This document shows, in pieces, positions 20,875 through 32,293 of a DNA stretch of 39,476 nt. The translations under genes and the position numbers were made by a program. The stretch spans positions 1 to 39,476 of the forward strand of contig JAPLYB010000032.1 in assembly GCA_026395795.1 (NCBI GenBank). The letters run 5' to 3'. The DNA comes from Candidatus Pacearchaeota archaeon (lineage in GTDB: Archaea > Nanobdellota > Nanobdellia > Pacearchaeales > UBA284). The stretch's first letter is position 1. Every line of letters starts with the position of its first letter. The notes below the pieces were generated by a model, which was not told where the DNA came from, did no database searches, and saw nothing but the letters and a program-made list of their open reading frames with translations.

Positions 20875-20947
20875 GCTCCCATAGTCTAGAGGCCAAGGAT
20901 ACTGCCTTCTCAAGGCAGTGACACGAGTTCGAATCTCGTTGGGAGCA
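20875..20947 (+). tRNA. tRNA-Glu(CTC)
   Basis: GCTCCCA/TGGGAGC acceptor, CTGCC-TTCTCAA-GGCAG anticodon arm, ACGAG-TTCGAAT-CTCGT T arm. Confidence 0.94.
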
Positions 20948-20949
20948 TT
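20925..20949 (+). repeat. attL (25 bp, tRNA-Glu 3' end)
   Basis: gagttcgaatctcgttgggagcatt identical to 29740-29764. Confidence 0.9.
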
Positions 20950-20996: not shown

Positions 20997-22118
20997 ATGA
21001 CAACGAGTAAGATTCCCCTACAGAAAAGATACGACAAAAGTAAGAAGGACAATATCGTTAAGTGGATTGTTCCTGAAAAACAAAAAGAAGATATCAAAAA
21101 ATATATCGACGCTTACGAGAATGGCGACATAACAAACAGAATAGGAACTAATATGCACGTGATAATCGAGAGAGAATTAGATTATCTCAAGGTTTCTTTG
21201 CAAAGTATAAACAAGGACAAACCAATAAAAGAAGACATAACCACATTCAAGAATAATCTTATTCAGAACAAGATAAAGAGATATAACCAAAAAACTAAAA
21301 AGCATGACGGCGAACCTTATTCTTTGAAGACCAAAAAAGCCATGCTTGAAGCAGTTAAAAAATATCTTAAATGGAAGTTTCCAGATAAACCAGAGATTCT
21401 TGTGCCTTTAGAAATAAAAATAAATTCTAAAAAGAATGATTATAATTACTTGACTCTTGATGAGATAGATAAACTCTATAAGAACTGCAAGAACGACGAA
21501 GAACGATACTTTATTGCCGTTTTGTTCTCAAGTGGGGCAAGAATCGAGGAATTTCTTAATATTCGATACAGCGATATAACTCTTCCAAAAGGTGAAGAGA
21601 ATTTCGTTAAGATTAGATTAAGAAGTGAGTTCACAAAAACCGAAAGCAGAACAATCTCTCTATACTATAAAAATTGCCTTGAAGCAACTCGAGACTTCTT
21701 AAAACAAAGAGAGAATGAAGGCATAAAACCAGAAGAGGCAGTTCTAACAAAAAAATACGGCAATCTTCGGGGGTGGTTATCTACATTCGGAAAAAGAGTT
21801 TTGAATAAAAGAGTTTCTTGTCATCAATTTAGACATTCAAGTGCGACTTGGTTGGCTTCAAGATTAAACCGACAACAATTATGTATTTATTTTGGTTGGA
21901 AATTCTCAAGCAACATGCCCGATAGATACATCTCAAGAAACGGCGTAGATATGGAAGAAGCGAATAATAAGTTTTCAGCAACAGAATTAGAAGAATTAAA
22001 AAATAGGCTTGATAGGACTGAACAAAAGCTTAGTAGAACTGAAGAAACCTTAAAATTAGCTTTAGATAGTGGAACTAAAACTTTAACAGATGTCAAAGAA
22101 CGATTGGCTAAAAAATAA
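20997..22118 (+). CDS. tyrosine recombinase/integrase, archaeal type, C-terminal coiled coil
   Basis: SSGARIEEFLNIRYSDI, CHQFRHSSATWLASR, ...DRYISRNG catalytic R/HxxR/Y. Confidence 0.88.
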   Translation: MTTSKIPLQKRYDKSKKDNIVKWIVPEKQKEDIKKYIDAYENGDITNRIGTNMHVIIERELDYLKVSLQSINKDKPIKEDITTFKNNLIQNKIKRYNQKTKKHDGEPYSLKTKKAMLEAVKKYLKWKFPDKPEILVPLEIKINSKKNDYNYLTLDEIDKLYKNCKNDEERYFIAVLFSSGARIEEFLNIRYSDITLPKGEENFVKIRLRSEFTKTESRTISLYYKNCLEATRDFLKQRENEGIKPEEAVLTKKYGNLRGWLSTFGKRVLNKRVSCHQFRHSSATWLASRLNRQQLCIYFGWKFSSNMPDRYISRNGVDMEEANNKFSATELEELKNRLDRTEQKLSRTEETLKLALDSGTKTLTDVKERLAKK

Positions 22119-22120
22119 AA

Positions 22121-22786
22121 TTATTTCTTATGTTTCTTTAGATAAGCTTTTCCTTTATCAGTAAGAGAAAGTTTATAATCGATTTTTATAAAATCATCAT
22201 ACAAAAGAAAAATGAGCTTTGCTCCAAAGTTATCTTTTCCAAATTGTTTAAACATTTCTATAAGTTTTTGATGTTGTTTATCTGAAGGTTGTTGTTCTTT
22301 AATTTCGACAAGTATTTTATCTACGAGAATACTTTTTAATTCGCCCTCTTCAAAGCTTTTATAACGTCTGTATGAATATTGTTCTGCTTCTTTAATTCTC
22401 TTTTTGTTCAATATTAATGTTTTTGGTCGTCCCCTTCTTTCTTCTCCTTCAAGTTCAAGGGATTTTCTCTTAATCCAACCTTCTTTTTCTAGCATATTTA
22501 TCCAATAATTGAATGTATTGCGATTTATTCCTAATTTTCTCTGAATATCTGCAATTGCTAAATTTTCTTCCGAAGATAATATTTCAAATATCTTCTTTCT
22601 GATTTCACTCTTTCTTTGCATCCGACTTAAGAGATTTTTAGCATATACCTCTGTTTGTTCTGGTTTCATTTTCTTCATAGAACTTAGTCTTCTCTTTTCT
22701 TTGTCATATATCTCTTTCTCTTCCTTCTTAGACATCTTTCTCTTCCAGTTCCAATTTTTATTTTGTTTATATTCAGTGTTTTTCAT
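22121..22786 (-). CDS. winged-helix transcriptional regulator
   Basis: IADIQRKLGINRNTFNYWINMLEKEGWIKRK; internal start MKNTEYKQ preferred over the track start at 22840. Confidence 0.65.
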   Translation of the reverse strand: MKNTEYKQNKNWNWKRKMSKKEEKEIYDKEKRRLSSMKKMKPEQTEVYAKNLLSRMQRKSEIRKKIFEILSSEENLAIADIQRKLGINRNTFNYWINMLEKEGWIKRKSLELEGEERRGRPKTLILNKKRIKEAEQYSYRRYKSFEEGELKSILVDKILVEIKEQQPSDKQHQKLIEMFKQFGKDNFGAKLIFLLYDDFIKIDYKLSLTDKGKAYLKKHKK

Positions 22787-22787
22787 A

Positions 22788-22810
22788 GTTATAACCATAA
22801 TGGTCATAAC
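22788..22810. promoter_or_regulatory. near-perfect 23-bp palindrome at a divergent promoter
   Basis: GTTATAACCAT-A-ATGGTCATAAC (one mismatch). Confidence 0.55.
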
Positions 22811-22829
22811 ATATATCCTTATAAATATT

Positions 22830-23009
22830 ATGCCCCCCACCCCATATATGGAGTCAATTAATATTTACAAAGAGAAGTGCCCCCATTGTAAAAAGGAGTT
22901 TACTTCTACAAACGAAACGGAAGTAAGACATAATTTTATTACTCATAAAGGGGCTTGTCCTGTTTTAAAAAACAGACTTAAAGAACAAAATGGAAAACCC
23001 TCAAATTGA
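22830..23009 (+). CDS. small zinc-finger-like protein
   Basis: CPHCKKEFTSTNETEVRHNFITHKGACP; start at the internal ATG. Confidence 0.6.
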   Translation: MPPTPYMESINIYKEKCPHCKKEFTSTNETEVRHNFITHKGACPVLKNRLKEQNGKPSN

Positions 23010-23300: not shown

Positions 23301-24824
23301 ATGCCTGAAAAAGTTGATGGTTATATCGATGAAGCAAAAATAGACCACATTTTTGGAAAACCAAAGCCCGTTTTTCAAAGTCTTGGATGCGGAATACATA
23401 ACGGTCATTTTTATTTTGGAACAGTGATTTACGCTGAAAATAAACCTTTTGATGCTGTAATCACAGATACTGGAGATTATCATATTGCTTATCCCATGCG
23501 TGATGAAATAAAAGAGGTTTTTGGTCTCAACTATCGATTTCCTCTTTATGATGATATGATTGACTATGCTTGGAGTAATGAAGGTATTTCAGATTTTCTA
23601 AAGGGAGTTTATAACCCTGAAGAAATGAAAATTATCTTAAAAAATCAGTTTGAAAAAATAAAAAAGAAGATTGAGGAGTTAATGGAATACCATGATAAAA
23701 GAATTTATCTTTCTGTTGCTTGCGATATAATAAGCACATACTTTTTGCCCGTCTGGTCTGCAAGGGGCATAACTTATTTCAAAGGAGACGCTGGTTCAGG
23801 AAAAACAAAGAGTGCTTCTATTTATGGCTTGTCTGCGTTTAATCCGTTACAGGCGGGCAATATAACACCGTCTGCATTATTCAGGACAATTGAAAGCACC
23901 AAAGGAACGATGATTATTGACAATTTCGATAATCTTCCTGAAGACCAAAAAAATGAGATTATTCATCTGTTGCAAGTTTGCTACAAAAAAGGTTTAAAGT
24001 ATAGCCGTAGCGAAGAGAAAGGCAAACAAAGGAGACCTACAACATTTGATACTTTCTGCAATCTTGTTTTAAATAATATTATGGGTTTAGATGATGTAAC
24101 CTTATCAAGATGCAACGAGACAGACCTTTTGAAAACAACCTCTGATAAAGGAAAATTACAACCAGACTCAAAAGACGCATTTTGGAAAATCTTTAGAGAT
24201 GATATGCATGTCTACGCTTTGCAAAACTGGAAAGCGGTTTTAGAATGTTATGAAGAGTTAGATGTTGATTTAATAAATAGAGACTTAGAAAAAGTCAAGC
24301 CAATTTTAACAATAGCCAAAATCGTAGATGAACAAGTCTATAAACAACTTTTAGATTATTTCAAAGAACAATCAGAGCTTTCTAAAGTTAAAGATTTAAA
24401 AGATGACTGGGGATATCAGTTACTTAAAAAAATTAAAGAGATTGTTTCTCAGAATGGCGATTGTTGTATAAAAACTGAGACTTTAACAGATGAACTTGCT
24501 AATTTGGTACTTGACTCAGAAGCACGAGACTACAAAAAACAGAAGCATGGATTAAGCATATTTATCGGTAAGAGAATTAGAGCTGTTCCCATGTGGAAAA
24601 ATAGCGGCAGAATGATAAATGGTAAAAGTGAATATTTTTTCAAACGTGAAGATATTCAAAAGCTTTTAGAAATCAAAGGTTATGTTGAGAACTCTACTAA
24701 CCCTACAATCCCTACTAACTCTACTAACCCAACTAATTCTACATCTGAAATTCTTGTAGAGAAGGTAGAATTAGTAGAATTAAAAGGAGATAAGCAAGAG
24801 AATGAAACACCTAACACCAATTAA
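23301..24824 (+). CDS. P-loop ATPase, possible plasmid/virus replicative helicase-like protein
   Basis: Walker A FKGDAGSGKTKSASIYG, Walker B-like GTMIIDNFDNL, low-complexity Thr/Asn/Pro segment near the C terminus. Confidence 0.7.
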   Translation: MPEKVDGYIDEAKIDHIFGKPKPVFQSLGCGIHNGHFYFGTVIYAENKPFDAVITDTGDYHIAYPMRDEIKEVFGLNYRFPLYDDMIDYAWSNEGISDFLKGVYNPEEMKIILKNQFEKIKKKIEELMEYHDKRIYLSVACDIISTYFLPVWSARGITYFKGDAGSGKTKSASIYGLSAFNPLQAGNITPSALFRTIESTKGTMIIDNFDNLPEDQKNEIIHLLQVCYKKGLKYSRSEEKGKQRRPTTFDTFCNLVLNNIMGLDDVTLSRCNETDLLKTTSDKGKLQPDSKDAFWKIFRDDMHVYALQNWKAVLECYEELDVDLINRDLEKVKPILTIAKIVDEQVYKQLLDYFKEQSELSKVKDLKDDWGYQLLKKIKEIVSQNGDCCIKTETLTDELANLVLDSEARDYKKQKHGLSIFIGKRIRAVPMWKNSGRMINGKSEYFFKREDIQKLLEIKGYVENSTNPTIPTNSTNPTNSTSEILVEKVELVELKGDKQENETPNTN

Positions 24825-25041: not shown

Positions 25042-25046
25042 TAGTA

Positions 25047-25150
25047 TCCGCACAACGCAAAGCCCGAGTGGAGTCCCCTTCTGCGTTTCTTGTCTACTTC
25101 GTAGACAAGAAACGCTATATTGTCCTTTCTCTCATGTTTGCTTGTGCGGA
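25047..25150. repeat. nested inverted repeat: 9-bp outer arms around a perfect 15-bp hairpin
   Basis: TCCGCACAA(25047)/TTGTGCGGA(25142); GCGTTTCTTGTCTAC-TTC-GTAGACAAGAAACGC (25083-25115). Confidence 0.85.
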
Positions 25151-25204
25151 AAGTACAAAACCTTGATTAGAAAAGGTTAAAAATATGAGATTTGTAAGAT
25201 AAAT

Positions 25205-26053
25205 ATGAAAGAAAGCTCTAGCGAAATAAAAAACAAAAATTTAAAACTAAGTGTAATGGAAGCATTGCAGGAAGATGCTTACAAAGGAATTGCAAGAATT
25301 GATGCAATGACAATGAAGCAATTAGGTGTGCAATCTGGAGATATTATCTCTATAAAGGGTGAACGTGAAAGTGTTGCCATTGTTGATGAAGTATGCCAAG
25401 CAGATGGGCTGTGGAAAAAATGGTTGGAGGAAAACCATCTTGGAGAGCATATTCTAAGAATCGATGGGATTATAAGAAGAAATGTCAAAACCGTAATTGG
25501 AGGAACCGTCATAGTTAATAAGATAGATACCAAAGAGGCAAAGGAAATTGTTGTTGAACCTACTAAAAAGGGGGTAGTTGTTCAAGTTAATCTTGAATAT
25601 TTCAAGAAAGAATTGCTAGGAAGAGCAATTGTTGTTGGTGATTTAATTCTTTTAGGCACTCAAAGGAGAAATGACTCGTCAGATGAGTTTGATGCTGGAG
25701 ATTTGGGAAGCATTTTTGGAGAAGTTTTCGGGAGTATGGGTATGAATCTAGGAGAGTCTGGAGGAATAACCTTTGTCGTAGAATCAACAAATCCTAAACA
25801 ACCAGTTATAATAACCGATAAAACCCAGATTAAGGTAACCCGTAAATCAACCAAAGAGTTTAACGAAGAAGATATTCGTGAGAAACAAATAATTGAAGTT
25901 ACTACTCTTCCAAATATGAAAAAGTTTCTTCGAGTTAAATCTCTAAAAGACATTTTCAAATTTTCAGAAAAAGGGTACATTATAAACAAATATGAAGATA
26001 AAATCAAGAAAATTTATTTTGTATCGGGGTATTTTTACGAAGTAAAAAAGTAG
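25205..26053 (+). CDS. standalone Cdc48/VAT N-terminal substrate/cofactor-binding domain protein
   Basis: LKLSVMEALQEDAYKGIARIDAMTMKQLGVQSGDIISIKGERESVAIV...ILRIDGIIRRNVKTVIGGTVIV; LGRAIVVGDLILLG; TFVVESTNPKQPVIITDKTQIKV; no Walker motifs. Confidence 0.85.
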   Translation: MKESSSEIKNKNLKLSVMEALQEDAYKGIARIDAMTMKQLGVQSGDIISIKGERESVAIVDEVCQADGLWKKWLEENHLGEHILRIDGIIRRNVKTVIGGTVIVNKIDTKEAKEIVVEPTKKGVVVQVNLEYFKKELLGRAIVVGDLILLGTQRRNDSSDEFDAGDLGSIFGEVFGSMGMNLGESGGITFVVESTNPKQPVIITDKTQIKVTRKSTKEFNEEDIREKQIIEVTTLPNMKKFLRVKSLKDIFKFSEKGYIINKYEDKIKKIYFVSGYFYEVKK

Positions 26054-29739: not shown

Positions 29740-29764
29740 GAGTTCGAATCTCGTTGGGAGCATT
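29740..29764 (+). repeat. attR (25-bp copy of the tRNA-Glu 3' end)
   Basis: gagttcgaatctcgttgggagcatt. Confidence 0.9.
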
Positions 29765-29810: not shown

Positions 29811-31085
29811 ATGAAAATAGACCTATATAATCATGAGCCAAGATACAATAGCTGGAAAGAGCACGCTTCTAAAAAGGATTATATCGAAGGAAACCTAACA
29901 AAAAAGAATTCTGATACTCTATTAAAATATATCTTTGATATGGAAGTTGGTGCTAATGTTTCTTTGCTTAGTAAAAAAGGCGGAAGGTCATTTATGAGGC
30001 TTAATACTATCAGAACAAGACTTACTCAGCTGTTTATAATGTTTCAAGGAAAAGATATTCCAGATATAACAAAAATAACAGAAAAACAACTTCAGAATTT
30101 CTTTGCAAATATGAGAAATGGGACAATCAAGAACAAATTAGGAGAAAAATACAAATCAACTGCCGATTATGTCAAGACTTTCAAGGCATTTTGGCACTGG
30201 TATATGAAAGTAAGCAAGAAAAAAGAGAAACTCATAACCGATGTTACAACAGAATTAGACTCCTCAAGAGATGAAAAGCCAAAATGGGTGTATCTTGATG
30301 AAGACCAGATGAAACTGCTTCTTGAGAAGTGTGAGCCACGTTATAAGCCATTCTTGTCATTCCTATACGATTCTGGAGCAAGGGTTACAGAATCCTTCTC
30401 TTTATTAGTTCAGGATATTCACGAAGAAAAAAATATTGTTTATGTTAACATAAGGGATGAAACAAGCAAGACATTTGGAAGAAAGATTAAACTGCTATTA
30501 TGCGGAAAAGACCTGCTAGAATACATAAAAAGAAGTGAACTAAAGCCAGAAGATAGACTATTTGGTTTTAGCCCAGAATATACTAATAGATATTTAGGAG
30601 AATTAGCAAAACAATTATTCGGGGATAAAGATTCAAAAGCAGGAGCAAAATACTCTGACTTGTCAATGTATGACTTTAGGCATAATTCTTGTTGTTATTG
30701 GATTAAAAGATACAAGAATAACACTGGCTTGATGTTTAGATTTGGATGGAAAACTGAAAAATATATTTTATATTACTCAGAATTTCTTGGAATGAGAGAT
30801 TTAATTTCTCAAGAAGATTTGTATATTGATATTACAAAAACAGAACTTGAGAAACAGCTTGATGAACAAAGTAAACAAGTAATTTCTTTACAAACTGCTC
30901 AAACAGAAATGCAGAAAGAATTTGAAAAAACCAAAAAAAGATTAAAAATAACATCAAAAGGAGATAGAATGGCGAGAGCATTTGTTGAAAGAATATTGGA
31001 AAATAGACCCGAAGTTAGAAGAGCTGTTGAAAAGGCAATGGAAAGAGAGGAATTAGAAAAACAAAATAAAAAATCTCATAAATAA
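29811..31085 (+). CDS. second tyrosine recombinase/integrase
   Basis: LYDSGARVTESFSLLVQDI, LSMYDFRHNSCCYWIKR, Tyr region KYILYYSEFLG, C-terminal coiled coil. Confidence 0.85.
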   Translation: MKIDLYNHEPRYNSWKEHASKKDYIEGNLTKKNSDTLLKYIFDMEVGANVSLLSKKGGRSFMRLNTIRTRLTQLFIMFQGKDIPDITKITEKQLQNFFANMRNGTIKNKLGEKYKSTADYVKTFKAFWHWYMKVSKKKEKLITDVTTELDSSRDEKPKWVYLDEDQMKLLLEKCEPRYKPFLSFLYDSGARVTESFSLLVQDIHEEKNIVYVNIRDETSKTFGRKIKLLLCGKDLLEYIKRSELKPEDRLFGFSPEYTNRYLGELAKQLFGDKDSKAGAKYSDLSMYDFRHNSCCYWIKRYKNNTGLMFRFGWKTEKYILYYSEFLGMRDLISQEDLYIDITKTELEKQLDEQSKQVISLQTAQTEMQKEFEKTKKRLKITSKGDRMARAFVERILENRPEVRRAVEKAMEREELEKQNKKSHK

Positions 31086-31222: not shown

Positions 31223-32293
31223 ATGACAAAACAAGAAACAGACATGGGTTTATTCATAGTTATTGCACTTGTCTTAATGGCTATTCTATCGTCGACTTTT
31301 CTCAAAGTTAAAAATTGGTTTTTACAGACATTCAATAAAATCTCAACTTCTGTTAATAATTCTATAAAATACATTCAAACGCATGGAATACTTACTATTC
31401 TTTGGATTATATTTGGTCTTGCTGTTGTCTATATTCTTTACAAAATAATAAAATCAATTATAGACAAAATAAATGAAAAAAGAGAAAGAGTTGAAAATAT
31501 TAAGAATGAGTTAAAAGAAATAGAAAAGCATATTAAAACAAGGTCTAACCCAGGTACAGTAGAAGAAGCAATTGATTCAGTAAGCAAAAAATTACAACTT
31601 TGTGAAGATACAAATAAATTAAAAGGGCATATCGGACTATTAAAAAAGAAACTTCTTAATCTTGAACTTCTGAATGAAGAATCAAGACGTAAAGAAAATA
31701 TAAACCAGCTAGAAATAAGAGAAAGAGAATTAGATTCTAGATTTGCAGAAAAAGAAAGAAAATCAAGAGAAGCTGAACAAAACAAGCAAGTCCTATTAAG
31801 AAGACTTGGAATTGAAGAAAATCGCGTATTTAAAAAATCAGAATTAAGAGACAAAGAAATAGAAGCACTTAAAGAACAGGATTTTGAGCAAGTTAATCAA
31901 TTTGATGTTCTTGAAAGAAAACAAATTTCTGTTTTAATCAAGCCCTATGAAAAATTAAATCATTCAAGGGAGCATATTTTCTTGGTTTGGAGTGTAAAAA
32001 GATTTCTTGAATCAAGGAGAATAGAAAGAATTGAAGAGCACTTAACAAAAGGTGCCGATATTACATTCAAGCATAATAAAAAATGGTTTGCAATTGAAAT
32101 TGAAACAGGCAGTATGCTTGAAAAATCAAAAAGGTTAAAAGAAAAAGTTGATTATCTTAATAGACAATATCCAAACAGGTGGATGTTTGTTGTTTCCAAT
32201 GAAAAATTAGTCTCAAGATATGCTGAATTTGGGTTAAGCACCTCAAGAAACCGGGTGCCAGAAAACCTCGAAAAACTGCTTAAAAATGTATGA
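31223..32293 (+). CDS. membrane-anchored coiled-coil protein with putative PD-(D/E)XK nuclease domain
   Basis: two N-terminal TM helices, long charged coiled coil, C-terminal GADITFKHNKKWFAIEIETGS. Confidence 0.6.
   Translation: MTKQETDMGLFIVIALVLMAILSSTFLKVKNWFLQTFNKISTSVNNSIKYIQTHGILTILWIIFGLAVVYILYKIIKSIIDKINEKRERVENIKNELKEIEKHIKTRSNPGTVEEAIDSVSKKLQLCEDTNKLKGHIGLLKKKLLNLELLNEESRRKENINQLEIRERELDSRFAEKERKSREAEQNKQVLLRRLGIEENRVFKKSELRDKEIEALKEQDFEQVNQFDVLERKQISVLIKPYEKLNHSREHIFLVWSVKRFLESRRIERIEEHLTKGADITFKHNKKWFAIEIETGSMLEKSKRLKEKVDYLNRQYPNRWMFVVSNEKLVSRYAEFGLSTSRNRVPENLEKLLKNV

Follow-up and report, generated by a model that had tools for sequence, protein, structure and literature searches.

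What does an integrated archaeal element gain from a Cdc48/VAT N-domain that is separated from its motor? The question is raised by a 282-aa protein encoded in a stretch of DNA of 39,476 nucleotides from a tiny, uncultured member of the Pacearchaeales (hereafter the window). An earlier note, made from the letters alone, had read this protein as a Cdc48_N double-psi barrel plus a Cdc48_2 subdomain, followed by a novel tail and lacking Walker A/B motifs, and had placed its gene on a mobile element.

The integrated element and its surroundings

The gene lies in an element that spans 8.8 kb between exact 25-bp att repeats. Outside the Cdc48-N gene itself the following features were recognised:

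20875..20947, + strand: tRNA-Glu (CTC), the integration target (ARAGORN; Rfam tRNA, 64.4 bits)
20925..20949, + strand: attL core, 25 bp GAGTTCGAATCTCGTTGGGAGCATT, at the tRNA-Glu 3' end (exact direct repeat)
20997..22118, + strand: tyrosine integrase, 373 aa (Pfam Phage_integrase, 5.3e-13; PHROG integrase, 1.5e-20)
22121..22840, - strand: winged-helix DNA-binding protein, 239 aa (HTH_24, 2.4e-8)
23301..24824, + strand: P-loop ATPase, 507 aa (homologues; Walker-like GDAGSGKT by eye)
25042..25157, + strand: strong hairpin, single copy in the genome (fold z -7.21; inverted repeats)
29740..29764, + strand: attR core, identical 25 bp (exact direct repeat)

The repeat of the tRNA 3' end on both flanks and the internal tyrosine integrase, which adjoins attL and starts 48 bases past it, are the hallmarks of a tRNA-integrated element and bear out the mobile location proposed earlier. 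No third att copy was found in the assembled genome when the first 22 bases of the repeat were searched with one mismatch allowed, and no capsid or packaging genes were recognised among the element ORFs with Pfam and PHROGs; the element is likely to be integrative and plasmid-like. The winged-helix protein is a probable regulator and the P-loop ATPase a probable replication protein, while further genes encode small membrane proteins and a PsbP-like lipoprotein. Relatives of the ATPase were found in 14 other genomes of the same order, and in four of the seven neighbourhoods examined they were accompanied by an integrase resembling either of the two in the window; the element integrase is 42% identical to an integrase in L040. 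None of these seven neighbourhoods contained a Cdc48 N-domain. The ATPase relatives in L037, L040 and L042 have a longer N-terminus, which judged by eye is possibly primase-like. Between a 79-aa ORF and the Cdc48-N gene lies the hairpin, with a perfect 15-bp stem (25083-25115) and outer arms at 25042-25055 and 25142-25155, which may be an origin of replication, a terminator or a structured RNA; six related element neighbourhoods had no perfect hairpin like it.

A second tyrosine integrase (window 29811-31085) begins 46 bases past attR, arranged just as the first integrase is relative to attL, which suggests a tandem second element at the same tRNA-Glu site. It is adjoined by a 356-aa protein (window 31223-32293) that weakly matches the defence protein KwaA (E 0.001).

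Fold and layout of the Cdc48-N protein

The Cdc48-N gene starts with ATG, and its product has the following layout:

25205..26053, + strand: stand-alone Cdc48/VAT N-domain protein, 282 aa (ORF, Pfam, NCBIfam, AlphaFold2, Foldseek)
25244..25525, + strand: Nn lobe (CDC48_N double-psi barrel), residues 14-107 (Pfam PF02359, 6.3e-16, above cut-off)
25406..25438, + strand: 11-aa insert GLWKKWLEENH in the second psi hairpin, residues 68-78 (alignment, model)
25592..25858, + strand: Nc lobe (CDC48_2), residues 130-218 (Pfam PF02933, 1.6e-12, above cut-off)
25682..25756, + strand: F/G/M-rich disordered loop, residues 160-184 (alignment; low pLDDT)
25859..25903, + strand: N-D1 linker remnant, residues 219-233 (tblastn of host Cdc48, whose alignment ends at 25903)
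25904..26050, + strand: novel C-terminal tail, residues 234-282, 49 aa (outside any known family)

A TATA-like stretch, noted by eye at 25177-25185, about 24 bases 5' of the start codon, would be consistent with a transcript that is leaderless, as in archaea.

Both lobes read earlier from the letters were recovered by Pfam and in an AlphaFold2 model, which was computed from an input alignment of 43 Pacearchaeota-type N-domains. In Foldseek this model matched p97 N-domains with E-values of about 4e-13 to 1e-12, so that the structural mismatch that would have spoken against the identification did not appear; the match of the protein to the Cdc48 N-domain is far above chance. The double-psi barrel and the Nc barrel were mostly modelled with a pLDDT of about 80-96, and confidence dropped at residues 61-80, in the loop near residues 153-185 and beyond residue 220 in the tail. 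The NCBIfam CDC48 model (TIGR01243) aligned with residues 13-237 only, scoring 114.7 bits where the cut-off is 802.65. Compared with a Cdc48/VAT ATPase, the protein has the two-lobed N-domain but not the two AAA modules with Walker A/B motifs. In agreement with the earlier reading of an ORF that ends at 282 aa without such motifs, the Pfam scan found no AAA family in the protein. Likewise, tblastn of the host Cdc48 against the window revealed no D1/D2 remnant in any frame. A broken cdc48 gene, of which an adjacent AAA fragment would have been the sign, was ruled out by this lack of D1/D2 homology together with a complete host cdc48 on another contig.

The features listed earlier were incomplete, as both the 11-aa insert and the conserved F/G/M loop had been overlooked. 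The insert, of which residues 68-76 were modelled as a helix, occurs neither in the host Cdc48 nor in any other Cdc48 N-domain in the alignment. The description of the tail as novel holds for residues 234-282, while residues 219-233 match the host N-D1 linker (DIREKQIIEVT in the element versus DIVEEKVLDVT in the host). As a whole the tail (219-282) is basic, with a pI of 9.5, and its pLDDT is 27-52. Compared with D1, the tail scored no better than shuffled sequences, 10% of which reached the same score. A weak tail match was obtained to a 62-aa ORF in L125 (E 7e-7 in one genome, one of 20 mostly weak matches across 195 genomes), for which no Pfam family was found.

Origin from the host lineage and selection on the element copy

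The Pacearchaeales host genome, which is 87.5% complete, encodes an intact Cdc48 of 770 aa on a separate contig (C42 of G000), the full-length copy that the earlier note had proposed to look for. It also encodes two proteasome-family proteins, from whose count we infer an alpha and a beta subunit. Those relatives of the host Cdc48 that carry a name come from Candidatus Pacearchaeota, which places the host in this group. The host Cdc48 (L020:3932-6244) ends in HSYTG and its counterpart in L013 in WYTG; the tyrosine of the host protein is third from the C-terminus, unlike in the classical terminal HbYX proteasome-docking motif. Directly 5' of cdc48, three genomes of the order encode a small protein (L020:6327-6824, L006:1115-1507, L013:6547-6936) with zinc-ribbon-like and AbrB-like parts by eye, possibly a factor linked to Cdc48.

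The element protein was sister to the host Cdc48 N-domain, with a support of 100/98, in a tree built from 85 N-domains, although a branch as long as that of the element protein (0.91 versus 0.15 for the host, about six times) can be misplaced. This placement therefore shows that the N-domain was captured from the host lineage. Moreover, element and host have a common loop, EFDAGDLGSIFGEVFG(N/S)MGMNLG, which differs in the other genera of the family in the alignment. In the genome search the two N-domains were 62% identical in amino acids across residues 10-233, and the gapped BLAST alignment gives 57%. At the protein level, homology to the host stops at element residue 233, within the N-D1 linker, and the capture therefore took place at a domain boundary, presumably by a clean cut in this linker; homology at the DNA level ends earlier, at 25818.

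At sites where the host base is common to at least three outgroups, the element branch had changes at 16% of second versus 37% of third codon positions (p=5e-4), compared with 4% and 34%, respectively, on the host branch. At the two larger site sets, the third-position bias on the element branch had p-values of 5e-4 to 9e-8. In neutral simulations the frame stayed open in less than 1% of cases, and pairwise dN/dS was about 0.2. At family-conserved sites, 26 changes were element-only and 9 host-only. The codon-position bias and the neutral simulation thus show that the protein has been maintained, under a constraint weaker than that in the host, and such purifying selection, read from the sequences, implies that its product is functional.

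Conservation was concentrated in two patches. The psi hairpin at residues 13-33 is 86% identical between element and host, and in the loop at residues 160-184 identity is 88% (22 of 25 residues) versus 60% outside it (p=0.007, uncorrected, for one of several segments compared and with small counts). Between the host and the family, by contrast, the loop is more divergent than the remainder (44-55% versus 71-75%). Recent gene conversion of the loop was ruled out, since 36-43% of its unchanged residues use different codons, and these synonymous differences argue against a recently converted patch.

Possible action of the motor-less N-domain on host Cdc48

The survey for stand-alone copies covered about 325 genomes, 207 of the same order and 142 of the class, 24 of these in the order. 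Many of the genomes are fragmentary, and coordinates alone were used to judge a few frames that are short or truncated. Among the matches listed there was no other stand-alone two-lobed N-domain, nor was one found among 80 named loci. No stand-alone copy was found in viral contigs (two scans with the element protein or its alignment and one with the ATPase), phages or plasmids; the plasmid matches were 23-30% identical, and many are annotated as full Cdc48 ATPases. Several candidates were rejected. The short frame in G104 (L013:6933-9163) belongs to a chromosomal cdc48 that an apparent frameshift divides into two ORFs; the gene is a pseudogene or the assembly contains an error there. The short frames in G173, G088 and G108 and the named loci L046, L071, L074 and L090 are cut by contig ends, and by their coordinates the frames in G060, G075, G249 and G259 come close to a contig end, leaving no more than a few hundred bases. 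In other genomes, second matches were full-length paralogues, G092 (156 aa, near the contig start) and G072 (411 aa) aside. The gene was thus found on one element only, and the widespread strategy that the survey might have revealed is unsupported by this single case. In the literature searched, which covers the field in part, no earlier description of a Cdc48 N-domain on a mobile element was found.

Like the N-domain of host Cdc48/VAT, the element protein has both lobes, the same fold and the common lineage-specific loop. In contrast to host Cdc48 it lacks D1, D2 and the Walker motifs and carries the 11-aa insert and the 49-aa new tail; its N-domain has a pI of 5.9 versus 8.8 in the host and evolves faster. 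The nearest analogue is Ufd1, a motor-less protein of the same fold that serves as a cofactor of eukaryotic Cdc48/p97 and also occurs in giant viruses, and in which the Cdc48-N architecture is likewise followed by a C-terminal region (PMC4192671). The UT3 fold of Ufd1 is equivalent to Cdc48-N, and its C-terminal region recruits Cdc48 (PMC4192671). The best viral structural match of the element protein in Foldseek was a putative UFD1 of Hyperionvirus, a giant virus (E 3.4e-9). However, the element protein derives from host cdc48 according to the tree and not from the Ufd1 lineage, it has no Pfam match to the UFD1 family at E-values up to 1, and membership of that family is not claimed. By eye, residues 219-282 contain no intact SHP/BS1 box (F-x-G-x-G-x-x-L), the nearest string being FSEKGYII, which lacks the first glycine. 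A 100-aa ORF in one genome of the class (L134:3960-4262), the end of which overlaps the first bases of a full-length cdc48, similarly encodes an isolated CDC48_N-type double-psi barrel, but it has no Nc lobe, lies directly before cdc48 and shows no sign of an element. A fast-evolving host domain has here been recruited by an integrated element, as in other cases where mobile elements or viruses captured genes of their hosts.

A recognition part without its motor on an element suggests interference with host Cdc48 or its redirection, and retention of the hairpin and of the host loop suggests the same partner as that of the host N-domain. The Cdc48 N-domain is a docking site for cofactors, which often compete for it (PMC4192671). 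The physiological role of the VAT N-domain has been described as unclear, and the unfoldase activity of VAT rises when this domain is removed (PMC5423775). We tentatively favour, at somewhat below an even chance, a trans-acting decoy of host Cdc48 that has no ATPase and shields a client. After taking the N-domain from its own host lineage by a cut in the N-D1 linker, the element would have kept binding to a partner or substrates of the host N-domain through the conserved hairpin and loop. Lacking a D1/D2 ring, its protein could not unfold bound clients and so would compete with host Cdc48, and some client, plausibly an element protein, would be shielded from unfolding and the proteasome; the insert and the tail may add specificity or an anchor. 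The presence of both Cdc48 and proteasome-family proteins in the host genome is in favour of such a decoy. Against it are the occurrence of the gene on a single element, with no recurrence to back a general strategy, the relaxation of selection relative to the host copy as judged from substitutions, and the new tail, which is superfluous for a pure decoy.

This tail would find a use if the protein were a Ufd1-like adaptor, in which the N-fold holds a client while the basic tail or the insert attaches to a protein of the host, be it Cdc48 or a different one; the unfoldase would in this way be brought to a target chosen by the element, for example a protein of host defence or the element's replication complex. 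The Ufd1-like layout (PMC4192671), the giant-virus match and the presence of both new parts favour an adaptor, but the tail has no intact SHP/BS1 motif and is modelled with low confidence, and Ufd1 depends on Npl4 and ubiquitin, which leaves this explanation rather unlikely. We regard it as improbable that the gene is a captured host cdc48 fragment, decaying and functionless as cargo. The branch six times that of the host, the excess of element-only changes at conserved sites and the one known copy would agree with such an accident, yet the frame is open and has its own start, its third-position bias and its survival are not those of neutral drift, and the patches are conserved. Least probable, with only a slim chance, is a stand-alone chaperone that binds unfolded element proteins and aids their folding without involving host Cdc48: isolated VAT-N reportedly assists refolding without ATP, but the retained lineage-specific host loop suggests a host-specific partner.

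It is conceivable, though we hold it with some doubt, that the free N-domain controls which targets the host Cdc48-proteasome system destroys, and that the element has thereby independently reinvented the motor-less design of Ufd1. A motor-less N-domain kept by selection marks the parts that an interferer must keep, namely one psi hairpin and the disordered F/G/M loop, and so may serve as a tool for finding N-domain ligands. If the protein acts on host Cdc48, the element would be, within the searches made, the first DPANN mobile element that targets protein quality control of its host, and would parallel a possible origin of Ufd1.
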